Positions 37,519-41,560 of a DNA stretch of 51,316 nucleotides are shown here, in pieces. The notes under the pieces were generated by a model. That model was not told the DNA's origin, did no database searches, and saw only the letters and a list, made by a program, of their open reading frames with translations. Position 1 is the stretch's first letter. Every line of letters starts with the position of its first letter. The DNA is taken from positions 1-51,316 of IMG/VR virus record IMGVR_UViG_3300030101_000538; one strand, written 5' to 3'. The position numbers and the translations under genes are program-made. Origin of the DNA: a virus.

Positions 37519-37707
37519 CTATGGTAGTGGTAAATCTAAACCAGCATCATCCAACACCCATATTAAAAATCTTTTAGGTGGTTTATCTGTATTCATTATA
37601 TACTTTACATACCTATCCCATTCGCCATTGTCAATACCTAACAGCTTAGACATGCGCCTAAGTTCAAATGCTAAGTATCGCCTACGTTCTGCATTGGTTA
37701 CAAACAT
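37519..37707 (-). CDS. Small basic helical protein (62 aa)
   Basis: The ATG at 37707 (MFVTNAERRRYLAFELRRMS) is used, since upstream in-frame sequence belongs to the transmembrane peptide gene. The product is helical, Arg-rich at the start, acidic in the middle and ends DDAGLDLPLP. Unknown function. Confidence 0.5.
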   Translation of the reverse strand: MFVTNAERRRYLAFELRRMSKLLGIDNGEWDRYVKYIMNTDKPPKRFLIWVLDDAGLDLPLP

Positions 37708-37712
37708 GGTTG

Positions 37713-37811
37713 TTATTTTCTTTTTAATAAAGTGAAAAATGCCCATGCAACTATGCACAGGCACACAAATGCCGCAATCAAATAGATTGTGGCTAGGATT
37801 ATTCCTATCAT
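37713..37811 (-). CDS. Single-pass membrane micro-protein (32 aa)
   Basis: MIGIILATIYLIAAFVCLCI then VAWAFFTLLKRK is one membrane helix with a basic tail. Its ATG overlaps the stop of the gene above (ATGA). Phage micro-membrane proteins of this kind often affect host physiology or lysis timing. No family. Confidence 0.5.
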   Translation of the reverse strand: MIGIILATIYLIAAFVCLCIVAWAFFTLLKRK

Positions 37812-37984
37812 TTAAACACTGATCGAATTGACATTGCTACACATTGAGTGCCTATTACTAGACCTAGTAAGTATATCCATCCTACATAATGGAATGTATG
37901 GTCTAGACTATAGATGGTTAAAGCTGTGCCAAGTATGGCGGTAATTATAGGCAGTATACGTTCTAACATTGGTAGTTTCTCCAT
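37808..37984 (-). CDS. Small two-helix membrane protein (58 aa)
   Basis: Start MEKLPMLERILPIITAILGT, then a second membrane stretch VGWIYLLGLVIGTQCVAM. No Shine-Dalgarno sequence is seen before the ATG (37984), which lies just after the structured RNA region. Transcripts may be processed there. Function unknown. Confidence 0.5.
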   Translation of the reverse strand: MEKLPMLERILPIITAILGTALTIYSLDHTFHYVGWIYLLGLVIGTQCVAMSIRSVFK

Positions 37985-38023
37985 TTAGTTGTGGGTATAA
38001 ATTGCTGCCGCCTTTAATTTTCT

Positions 38024-38108
38024 CCCAAATGGGTTAGCAGTCGCAGGTCTGCTTTATCAGATTATCAATCTGCCGTGCCTACTTGGGCTGGCATCGGACT
38101 CTACCAGC
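38024..38108 (-). ncRNA. Candidate structured RNA (three-way junction plus hairpin)
   Basis: On the minus strand CCCAAGT (38087-38081) pairs with ATTTGGG (38030-38024), enclosing CAGATT-GAT-AATCTG and AGCAG-ACCTGCGA-CTGCT hairpins, and GCTGG/CCAGC adds a hairpin at 38087-38108. One closing pair is G-T on the minus strand but A-C on the plus strand, which favours minus-strand RNA. It is tRNA-like but too short (64 nt) and has no T-loop. No known family recognised. Confidence 0.4.
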
Positions 38109-38177
38109 TTGCACCCTGCCACTGCTTCCACATAGACATAGTAGGAGGGATACCATGCCGCTTTTTACGTGGTTAAT

Positions 38178-38270
38178 TGGGAGAGGGAAGGGAGTCAAAC
38201 CCTTCGCTAGATTGTCTGTTCAATCTCAGTATAAAAATCAGATTTATACTGTTCGCCCGTCCGGCCTCTC
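38178..38270 (-). tRNA. tRNA-Ser-like gene (anticodon TGA), odd anticodon and D arms
   Basis: The minus strand has a type II tRNA outline of 90 nt plus encoded CCA: acceptor GAGAGGC/CCCTCTC (six pairs, last a C-C mismatch), T arm AAGGG-TTTGACT-CCCTT, long variable arm AGATTG-AACAGA-CAATCT and an anticodon hairpin of 9 bp with loop TCTGATT. The anticodon would be TGA (Ser, UCA). Position 33 is C instead of the near-universal U, and the D stem is poor, so it may be a degenerate tRNA or a tRNA mimic. Confidence 0.55.
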
Positions 38271-38300
38271 ATATGTTCTTGTCGATACAATCAAAATGGT

Positions 38301-38322
38301 AGGGGGCCAGTATTGACCCCCT
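38301..38322. terminator. GC hairpin after the 159-residue gene
   Basis: AGGGGG and CCCCCT (6 bp) around a 10-nt loop sit 8 bp past the stop of the gene at 38330-38809. On the minus strand ACCATTTTG follows, so it is only a weak terminator and may instead process or insulate the RNA region. Confidence 0.4.
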
Positions 38323-38329
38323 ATTTAAA

Positions 38330-38809
38330 TTAGCTGATAACTATTTCAGCGTTCAAGCGACTATTGAAAGCTTCAATGTCACCTTTTACTTCCCGCCCTT
38401 CCTCAATTGCTTTGTCTACTTGCGCTTGCGCTGCTTTTTGCAATTTTGCAAAGTCTAACAGCTTATCAAGGTCTAAAGCTTTGACGGGTTTCTCTTTGGT
38501 GAATTCATACCATGCAATCGCCATCGCATCTTGAATGAGATATTGACGCTTGCCTTTCTTAAAAGCTTGGTCTTTTTCTTTCCAGTTTTGGGGCGTGAAA
38601 GCTTCGATATATGCAATCATGCCTTGCTTTCTGGTAGAGTTGGGCATGGCATTTACCAAGCGAGTGAGTTTGGTATTGTCGCCATACTGTTCTGCATGGT
38701 GCATTGCTGACACTGCAACCACTTGTGACTTGGCATTAAATGTTTTACCCATCCTACGGATAGCGTTAATGCCATTGTCGATTTCTTTAGCGTTAAGAAG
38801 ATTTTCCAT
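38330..38809 (-). CDS. Conserved-looking phage protein (159 aa)
   Basis: The ATG at 38809 (MENLLNAKEIDNGINAIRRM) has aaaggatatcatt before it; the open frame continues upstream without a site. The product is helical, with NAKSQVVAVSAMHHAEQYGD, then TRKQGMIAYIEAFTPQNWKE and a Lys-rich C-terminal coiled coil. I recall similar proteins in many marine and enteric podoviruses, function unknown. It is the first gene of the minus arm, reading away from the intergenic hub, which fits an early gene. Confidence 0.7.
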   Translation of the reverse strand: MENLLNAKEIDNGINAIRRMGKTFNAKSQVVAVSAMHHAEQYGDNTKLTRLVNAMPNSTRKQGMIAYIEAFTPQNWKEKDQAFKKGKRQYLIQDAMAIAWYEFTKEKPVKALDLDKLLDFAKLQKAAQAQVDKAIEEGREVKGDIEAFNSRLNAEIVIS

Positions 38810-38869
38810 AATGATATCCTTTTGATAATTGGTTGATTGTATCAATAAGAACATAAGGAGAACAAACGC

Positions 38870-39217
38870 TTGAATACGCCAAACGGTCCACCGTCACCAC
38901 GTCACAAGGCCGTGGGTAGGTTTCGGGTTTTGCAATTCAAGGCTGACATTGTTAATCTGTTTTCGGAATTTCAACCGTGGGTGATCAACCCCACACTATA
39001 TTACCGCCTAGTATTTGGCGGGCATGCTTACTCTGGTGGCATACTACCATGTTGCCTAGTGCAACTCCCCATTACCAAAATCATGGGTGACGGCTGGCCC
39101 CGCCTTAAGTATCTGGCTTCGGTTATGTCCCCCAATCGCCTTGGCTCATGGGCTATGTCCCCGAAACGGTCCAGAAAACTGAGACCAGCTAACCGCCAAG
39201 CACGCTCATGGAATTAA
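38870..39217 (+). CDS. TTG-start ORF (115 aa) overlapping a possible structured RNA
   Basis: The frame has aaggag 8 nt before a TTG (38870) and runs 115 codons: MNTPNGPPSPRHKAVGRFRV ... ending QARSWN. The protein is unlike any family I know, Pro/Arg-rich and without a clear fold. The DNA is GC-richer than its surroundings. Within it are several short hairpins (CCACG/CGTGG, GTGGG/CCCAC, CCGCC/GGCGG, CCCAT/ATGGG). It could be coding, or a non-coding structured RNA. The evidence is balanced, so coding is tentative. Confidence 0.4.
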   Translation: MNTPNGPPSPRHKAVGRFRVLQFKADIVNLFSEFQPWVINPTLYYRLVFGGHAYSGGILPCCLVQLPITKIMGDGWPRLKYLASVMSPNRLGSWAMSPKRSRKLRPANRQARSWN

Positions 39218-39249
39218 CCCATCCGGCGGTATCGAACGACTTAGCGGTT
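39191..39249. repeat. Imperfect inverted repeat at the end of the GC-rich block
   Basis: AACCGCCAAG (39191-39200) and CTTAGCGGTT (39240-39249) pair over 9 of 10 bases, with a smaller ATGG/CCAT hairpin inside the loop. It spans the stop codon of the TTG ORF, so it is a structure or a terminator rather than part of a protein gene. Confidence 0.5.
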
Positions 39250-39976
39250 GCCCCAATTGGGTATCTCTGCATTCGATGATCTAAACCTAGCACAAGGTTG
39301 AATTGGGATCAATAGAAAAGTGAATGTTAGTTTTGCATACCTGCCATGCGTTAAATGCATAGCTATTATATATATATAATGTATAGGGCAATATGGGGAG
39401 AACAGACAAGGAACGAATGTAGTACGTTTGCGAACTCTGCTGTCCAGGTAGAAATATAGCTTTTTTAAAGATTGCTCTCCACGGGCCTTAAAATGCCTCC
39501 TGGGGCTGTCAAGCATAAAATGACCTAAAAACACCAAATAATTGAATGATGATGCAAATATGTCACACTATCATCATGTACACTATAATAACATCATAGA
39601 CATACTACACAATTAATTTGTAGAATAGATATAAACTACACAAAAACCAATACTTTGCAGGGATTGCATAGGTCCAGCATGGTGTACAATATCGGCATTA
39701 TACAAGCGAGATGGATGAAATAAATAGTATCACACAAGAATTATGTAGAATGTAAGGTATTCCCCACAAGAATTGTGTAGAATATAGAGGTATTACATAG
39801 ACCCCCCGTACAAAAAAATTGCCCATGTGTATTATATATATATATAACACTCTCGAATATTTAAAAAAATATCAGGGTCTATCATCAATAACCATAGGTG
39901 TGACATAATTACCACATCGGCCCTACTATTTAGTTACTATGATATATTTTTTATATATATTTATAATATACCTATT
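39250..39976. other. AT-rich non-coding hub before the large terminase
   Basis: About 730 bp without a credible gene. It has two (TA)n tracts (near 39366-39380 and 39832-39847), a TATAAT at 39584-39589 without a good -35, palindromic repeats (next entries) and a long AT block (39941-39975). It is the boundary between the minus and plus arms. The composition suits an origin or a control region. A 98-codon minus frame at 39241-39537 has no ribosome site and odd composition, so it is not called. Confidence 0.6.
39605..39793. repeat. Palindromic iteron-like repeats (CTACA...TGTAG type)
   Basis: Three related units share ACACAA-(G)AATT-N-TGTAGAAT: near 39605-39626 (CTACACAATTAATTTGTAG palindrome), 39732-39760 and 39764-39793. 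The last two are 32 bp apart and both continue into TA..GGTAT. A partial copy CTACACAA is at about 39636. Dyad symmetry suggests binding of a dimer. Confidence 0.6.
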
Positions 39977-40003
39977 GTGGAACTTACTAATAAGTGTTAT
40001 AAT
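39975..40003 (+). promoter_or_regulatory. Promoter placing the mRNA start on the large-terminase ATG
   Basis: TTGTGG (39975-39980), a 17-nt spacer and TGT-TATAAT (39998-40003). The ATG of the large-terminase gene begins 7 nt after the -10, where transcription would start. The promoter overlaps the in-frame GTG at 39977, so that GTG cannot be the start. Confidence 0.7.
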
Positions 40004-40009
40004 AGTACT

Positions 40010-41560
40010 ATGGAAAACTTAAATAGTAATCTACAGAGTAACTACATAGAGTCTTACATCAATCTTGAAGCCTTGTTGTCTCAACAGATAGAGCTACAAT
40101 GTAATGATGACTTCTTATCCTTTGTACGTTTGGTCGCCCCTACTATTGTGTCTGACTTTAAGATGGGAAGACATATAGAAATAATATCAAACAAACTACA
40201 ACAGGTAGAAAATGGTGAGATAAAAAGACTGATGGTCTTCCTACCACCACGTTCATCAAAGTCTGTTGTCTGTTCCAAACTATTCCCTGCATGGTACATA
40301 GGTAGAAACCCCAAACACGAACTATTAACTATATCACATAGTGATCAGCTTGCCAGTGACTTTGGTAGGTCCGTCAGAGATATTGTTAATATGGAAATGT
40401 TTCAAAAGGTATTTCGTGGTGTGGCACTTCGTAGTGATGTACGAGCAGCAGGTAAGTGGAAGACAAACCATGAAGGAACATACTATGCGGCTGGTGTTAG
40501 ATCACAGATAGCAGGACGAGGAGCGCATGTAGCAATCCTAGATGATGCAATGTCTGAAGAAGATGCAATCTCCAGTGCAGGTAGAAGGTTTATCAAGGAG
40601 TGGTATCCTGCTGGACTACGCACACGTATCATGCCTAACGGAGCTATTGTCATAATCAATACCAGATACCACTATGATGATCTATGTGGATGGCTACTGA
40701 AGCAACAAGAGAACATGCCAGACTATGAAACAATACCGTGGGATGTAGTTAAGATACCTGCATGGCTTGATGATGATGCATCAGAACTACTGGACTTACC
40801 TGTAGGGTCTAGCTATTTCCCTGAGTGGAAACCAGATCATGTCTTGAAGGTAGATGAAAATGAGATCAAGGCATCAAACGGTAGCCGCTACTGGAACGCT
40901 CTTTACATGCAAGACCCTACACCTGAAGAGGGTGGCCTCATAAAAAAGAAGTGGTTACAGAACTGGGAGTATGACGAACCACCCTCCTGTGACTTTGTAA
41001 TACAAACATTTGATACAGCCTTCTCTACATCTAACACAGCAGACTACAGTGTTATACAGACATGGGGTATCTTTCACCTATATGATCAAGACGAGGACGG
41101 GTACGAAGACTATGCATCTAATCTTATATTGCTTGGGAATGTTAAGGGTAGATTTGAATATCCTGAACTAAGACGAATATCACAGAAGCTATACAATCAG
41201 CACAAGCCTGATCTATGTATGGTAGAAAAGAAAGCTAGTGGTCAGTCTCTCATACAGGACTTACGTAGGTCTGGCTTACCTGTGTTAGAATACAACCCAG
41301 ACAGAGATAAGGTATCCAGGGTCTACGCTGCTACACCCATGATGGAGTCAGGTAGGGTATGGATACCAATGAACAAGAAGTGGGCAGATGATCTAGTGGA
41401 GGAGCTTATACGGTTCCCCAATGCAGCCCATGATGACCAAGTGGATGCCTTAACAATGGCTGTTCACTACATGAAAGACTCCTGGCATCTTACCCACCCT
41501 GATGATCCTGACTACGAAGAAGCACCCCGTAGTAAGAGAGCAACCTACTGGAATGTCTAA
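40010..41560 (+). CDS. terL: Terminase large subunit
   Basis: The motor and nuclease of DNA packaging. The ATG at 40010 is used (516 residues), because the open upstream frame runs through the promoter. The ATPase has a Walker A-like LPPRSSKS (about 79-85) and Walker B VAILDDAMSEED. The nuclease domain has QTFDTAFSTS, VEKKASGQSL and DDQVDALTMAV. No Shine-Dalgarno sequence is present, so the mRNA is probably leaderless. The cognate small subunit lies 24 kb away on the other strand. It is the first gene of the late plus arm. Confidence 0.93.
   Translation: MENLNSNLQSNYIESYINLEALLSQQIELQCNDDFLSFVRLVAPTIVSDFKMGRHIEIISNKLQQVENGEIKRLMVFLPPRSSKSVVCSKLFPAWYIGRNPKHELLTISHSDQLASDFGRSVRDIVNMEMFQKVFRGVALRSDVRAAGKWKTNHEGTYYAAGVRSQIAGRGAHVAILDDAMSEEDAISSAGRRFIKEWYPAGLRTRIMPNGAIVIINTRYHYDDLCGWLLKQQENMPDYETIPWDVVKIPAWLDDDASELLDLPVGSSYFPEWKPDHVLKVDENEIKASNGSRYWNALYMQDPTPEEGGLIKKKWLQNWEYDEPPSCDFVIQTFDTAFSTSNTADYSVIQTWGIFHLYDQDEDGYEDYASNLILLGNVKGRFEYPELRRISQKLYNQHKPDLCMVEKKASGQSLIQDLRRSGLPVLEYNPDRDKVSRVYAATPMMESGRVWIPMNKKWADDLVEELIRFPNAAHDDQVDALTMAVHYMKDSWHLTHPDDPDYEEAPRSKRATYWNV

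Follow-up and report, generated by a model that had tools for sequence, protein, structure and literature searches.

A GC-rich block beside a viral terminase gene as the probable leader RNA of an early operon headed by phrog_1448

Introduction

What is the function of a GC-rich block standing between divergent genes in a virus genome, and does it correspond to a structured RNA, to an unusual gene, or to neither of these? The block occupies positions 38870-39300 of the window, that is, of the whole stretch of DNA that was analysed (51,316 of the 58,291 bases of the virus record), and attention was drawn to it by an earlier note made from the letters alone, which saw there many short stems, a reading frame opening with TTG, and a possible kinship with GOLLD and ROOL. 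These two are large non-coding phage RNAs, often described near tRNA islands (PMC12286853).

Results

The higher GC content attributed to the block is real (0.513, against 0.381 in the window), and the genes around it are arranged divergently, with a minus-strand set on one side and the terminase, on the plus strand, on the other. The block is ORF-poor and lies directly upstream of a phrog_1448 gene, on the same strand, with a leader of about 0.5 kb upstream of that gene. The features of the locus are as follows:

38300-38323, minus strand: terminator-like hairpin 3′ of the phrog_1448 gene, with a 10-pair stem and a loop of 4
38330-38809, minus strand: early gene of the family phrog_1448 (PHROG E 1.9e-26)
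38810-39300, minus strand: non-coding GC-rich leader block with the stretch to the phrog_1448 start codon, recognized by its position, by the lack of coding signal in the TTG frame and by a counterpart slot in L013, L062, L067 and L077
39571-39976, no strand given: slot flank, some 400 bp before TerL, with conservation of 91% in L013, 84% in L067 and 77% in L062
39977-41560, plus strand: terminase large subunit (TerL), the divergent neighbour, used for finding relatives

Relatives of the terminase were collected from IMG/VR, and three of them (L013, L062 and L067) match the window piecewise as far as about 37.8-38.0 kb and then once more beyond about 39.57 kb, with no match between; in all three the first minus-strand gene is a phrog_1448 gene only 20-25% identical to the window copy, and upstream of it, on the same strand, is a stretch poor in ORFs. 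The layout of L077, the genome behind L035 and the bearer of a related TerL, is the same as that of the window. The matching flanks, the non-matching interior and the phrog_1448 layout of the relatives thus identify the block as the variable leader of an early operon. Homology of the block with the leaders of L013, L062, L067 and L077 was considered and rejected, as neither blastn of the block against these leaders nor the covariance model R1, presented below, gave a match. Its sole relative is L001 (IMG/VR), which is 99% identical over 5.3 kb and differs by one base within the block; an exact 18-mer sought in IMG/VR returned only L001, and a search of phages and plasmids yielded no homologue. 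Promoter-like sites are not commoner than in shuffles. As a separate observation, a region of some 200 bp that runs up to and past the start of the terminase gene (39833-40037), mostly non-coding, is 70-95% conserved in nearly all relatives, and is perhaps a packaging or regulatory site.

The second option of the earlier note, an unusual gene, refers to one frame:

38870-39217, plus strand: 115-codon frame opening with TTG, considered accidental, antisense to the leader

The frame does exist, and AAGGAG stands 9 nt before its TTG, as had been reported. Nevertheless, its codon score (−0.42) is below that of all 91 real gene segments (0.31 ± 0.16) and below the wrong-frame average (−0.25), small neighbouring genes scoring 0.08-0.27, and its GC content is flat across codon positions (0.53/0.49/0.51), the third-position GC of five phage genes taken for comparison being 0.10-0.27. 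The predicted protein has no relatives in Pfam, PHROGs, phages, GTDB genomes or IMG/VR other than in the near-identical L001, where one change falls within the frame, and no DNA similar to it was found in plasmids. As a gene, therefore, the frame was rejected on codon usage and on the missing homologues; it is very probably accidental, and the option of an unusual gene finds little support.

With respect to the stems, all the 5-mers that had been named are present: CCACG at 38897; CGTGG at 38911 and 38976; GTGGG at 38912 and 38977; CCCAC at 38990; CCGCC at 39004, 39100 and 39193; GGCGG at 39017 and 39225; CCCAT at 39068 and 39218; and ATGGG at 39083 and 39148. Their number, however, does not exceed chance, since exact 5-mer stems within 80 nt amount to 36 against 32.0 ± 7.2 in shuffles (36 is reached in 87 of 300), and longer exact stems show no excess either (6-mers, 8 against 8.1; 7-mers, 0 against 2.1). 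The folding of the whole block is ordinary, with z −0.82 on the plus strand and −1.59 on the minus strand (energies of −149 and −162 kcal/mol, respectively), and the stability of the window leader does not differ significantly from that of shuffles (z −1.2 to −1.6). Two hairpins can nonetheless be singled out:

39187-39252, minus strand: 21-pair bulged hairpin, 4 of the pairs being G.U, whose stability is found chiefly on the minus strand (arms 39187-39212 and 39232-39252)
38814-38854, minus strand: 14-pair hairpin containing the phrog_1448 ribosome site, AAAGGA (z −1.70)

The first confirms the long pairing that had been noticed at 39191-39249, which on the minus strand extends to 21 pairs including the G.U pairs; it reaches −38.2 kcal/mol (z −2.75) on that strand and −26.7 kcal/mol (z −1.99) on the plus strand in the 100-nt window 39160-39259, values that are suggestive only, as it ranks first among 108 overlapping windows. 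The likely sense strand of the block is the minus strand, and not the plus strand of the TTG frame. A weak terminator-like hairpin was also observed at 38885-38867, just before phrog_1448.

The proximity to tRNA genes that had been claimed was not borne out by ARAGORN, which found 0 tRNAs in the window. A degenerate tRNA-Ser-like element, missed by that program and read by eye, lies at about 38183-38272 on the minus strand, 0.6 kb from the block, with a possible anticodon TGA and the T-arm GAAGGGTTTGACTCCCTTC; its counterpart in L113 (1111-1245) seems to carry an insert. Rfam was also searched with cmscan, the whole window at the gathering threshold and 37700-40000 up to E 10, and no family was matched, neither GOLLD nor ROOL among them. 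GOLLD, ROOL or any other Rfam family was thus rejected for the block, given the lack of a covariance-model match and of a tRNA array, and the suggested likeness is further weakened by the position of the block as the leader of an early operon. The block would share with those RNAs the character of a large non-coding RNA of phages, and differs from them in its size of about 0.5 kb, in its leader position and in having a fold that is predicted only. Beside the tRNA-like element, a 185-nt ORF-poor element on the minus strand (37999-38183), 89% identical to L113 1239-1426 and with a predicted multi-stem fold, matches no Rfam family at the thresholds used, and is possibly another structured RNA.

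The leaders of L062, L067 and L113 are homologous to one another, and their consensus fold contains 67 pairs, of which 13 are compensated in the three sequences, a number reached in none of 500 shuffles; cells predicted as paired are so in 97.5% of cases, against 33-43% with the partners slid. Several conserved G.U pairs establish that the sense of this fold is that of the phrog_1448 strand. Its last two helices (9-10) enclose the phrog_1448 ribosome site, with which helix 9 pairs, and the 38814-38854 hairpin of the window has the same architecture. The covariance model of this clade (R1) gave no match in the window with filters on and, with filters off, a best score of 7 bits (E 0.24) outside the block, so that the window leader is not a detectable member of the L062 class.

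Similar results were obtained from other phages. The phrog_1448 leaders of Vibrio phages show compensation at 14 pairs among seven sequences, a number that none of 500 shuffles reaches; upstream of these leaders, a TTGACA-TATAAT promoter can be seen in their alignment. The L062-clade leaders and these Vibrio leaders (VpJYP1, VPp1, KIT05 and others) resemble that of the window in being ORF-poor, in their position and in the phrog_1448 gene downstream, and the L062 clade also in having the ribosome site within a hairpin; they differ in that no similarity of sequence or structure to the window block is detectable, and in that their folds are supported by covariation, whereas that of the window is predicted only. 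The leaders of Friunavirus are about 90% identical over 410 nt, ORF-free and non-coding, with one covarying helix in an 8:8 split that may represent a single event, and the leader continues where ORF3 is absent. Of the 14 leaders tested, 13 have a lower folding energy on the phrog_1448 sense strand than on its complement. The early leaders of phiKMV and Friunavirus (Fri1) are comparable to that of the window in that a span of 0.4-1.3 kb, free of annotated genes, opens or nearly opens an early operon that holds phrog_1448; unlike that of the window, they belong to isolated phages and lie at genome left ends with direct repeats and host promoters, and the sequences are unrelated. The phenomenon is tied not to the gene alone but also to the slot, and the link with phrog_1448 is not exclusive, as some TerL relatives without this gene are strongly structured there too (z down to −10.7), with compensation at 11 pairs across six sequences. 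No leader that was scanned (in the window, in relatives and in known phages, with L113 and the extra Vibrio leaders outside the set) has a match in Rfam, the scan of known phages found only tRNAs, and no description of phrog_1448 leaders was found in the open-licence literature. Separately, sequences resembling rrn boxA (GCTCTTTAA or GCTCTTTAG) were seen by eye after the early promoters of the phrog_1448 leaders of several isolated phages (L087, L089, L090 and L092) and hint at antitermination; the window has no clear copy of GCTCTTTAA.

The phrog_1448 gene of the window has a codon score of 0.08, and its protein is predicted to be all-helical (mean pLDDT 76); in a search by structure for its function, PDB gave no match, and the matches in BFVD were all members of its own family. 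The gene phrog_1448 is among the first early genes in phiKMV, in Friunavirus and in other phages. A 23-bp inverted repeat (21/23), unique in the window and partly common to L113, flanks the gene at 38272-38294 and 38833-38855, one arm preceding the tRNA-like element and the other lying in the ribosome-site hairpin, with which the first could thus in principle pair; as a promoter or a recombination site the repeat allows no firm reading.

Discussion

The explanation that best accommodates these observations, and one that we hold to be reasonably probable, is that the block is the untranslated 5′ leader RNA of a minus-strand early operon headed by phrog_1448, exchanged as a cassette and probably structured. 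Covarying RNAs of unrelated sequence at the same position in relatives and in other phages suggest that leaders are swapped like cassettes; judged from the covariation, this place is occupied in several unrelated phages by RNAs that are folded and that differ from one another. All this covariation comes from sequences that are not homologous to the window block, and it is mainly by analogy with these RNAs, in the slot of relatives or before phrog_1448, that the structured RNA first proposed is plausible, since the fold of the window barely surpasses shuffles; by the same analogy, the window's own leader would have a functional fold.

In such a scheme, the host RNA polymerase would initiate at some point in the interval from the block to the terminase gene, and an RNA of about 0.5 kb would be transcribed and would fold, without being translated, before phrog_1448 is reached. 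As the ribosome site of this gene lies inside a hairpin, the timing of protein synthesis, or the amount made, is probably set by the leader, which would in this manner control the translation of phrog_1448. Riboswitches and autoregulatory leaders are structured 5′ leaders that hide the ribosome site. The window leader resembles them in that its ribosome site is paired in a predicted hairpin, and differs from them in having no known ligand or binding protein, and no Rfam family.

An unlikely alternative is that the actual product is the RNA of the leader, which would stand alone as a structured molecule, its transcript being processed or ending ahead of phrog_1448, and would represent a large new class that phages exchange with one another. 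At 300-500 nt and with many helices, the leaders far exceed a simple ribosome-site switch, several unrelated classes share one slot, the Friunavirus leader is conserved where the adjacent gene varies, and the weak hairpin before phrog_1448 could serve as a terminator; however, the scan for terminators gave a hairpin count near the level of shuffles, and the covarying helix of the L062 clade includes the ribosome site of the gene, which points to control in cis. Quite improbable is a third view, in which the block, lying between divergent promoters, has no functional fold and is either filler under no selection or DNA that was acquired, its high GC content reflecting its origin. Stem numbers and a whole-block fold close to those of shuffles agree with it, as does a conservation confined to one near-identical contig; against it, the same slot is structured and covaries in relatives, the 39187-39252 hairpin is asymmetric between strands, and dense phage genomes would rarely keep 0.5 kb of idle sequence. 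Finally, translation of the plus-strand TTG frame into a short basic protein is scarcely credible in spite of its 115 open codons and its AAGGAG, because its codon usage and positional GC are unlike those of every real gene, its product would have 3 acidic and 17 basic residues, a frame of at least 115 codons arises in 69 of 1000 shuffles, and that AAGGAG falls within the strand complementary to the phrog_1448 leader hairpin.

Early phage leaders are usually dismissed as promoter regions. In at least two phage groups that share phrog_1448 the leaders clearly covary and, where scanned, match nothing in Rfam, and would therefore be RNA families so far absent from that collection; phrog_1448 may be controlled by RNA or work together with it, and the window block, with a fold that is predicted only, would be one more member of the slot. 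A wider and doubtful proposal, offered here tentatively, is that early operons beginning with phrog_1448 (in Vibrio phages, Friunavirus, the 58-kb relatives of the window, and possibly phiKMV-like and N4-sized phages) open with a large structured leader RNA, that several classes unrelated in sequence occupy one exchangeable slot, the window being a new class, and that the RNA, alone or together with the protein, may have an early action against the host during infection.

Two further observations concern the slot. A gene of about 220-260 aa (MSNYKLIGVGNNAKTVKGDGSEYL...) is conserved beside it (L113 1456-2135, L013 1549-2310 and L062 1567-2346). Another class of slot leader, in genomes without phrog_1448 (L039 4447-4860, L029, L038, L033, L021, L018, L004 and L061), contains repeated hairpins, for example GTAGTAGTAACGAAGTGTTACTAC, and has a very low folding energy in several of its members.
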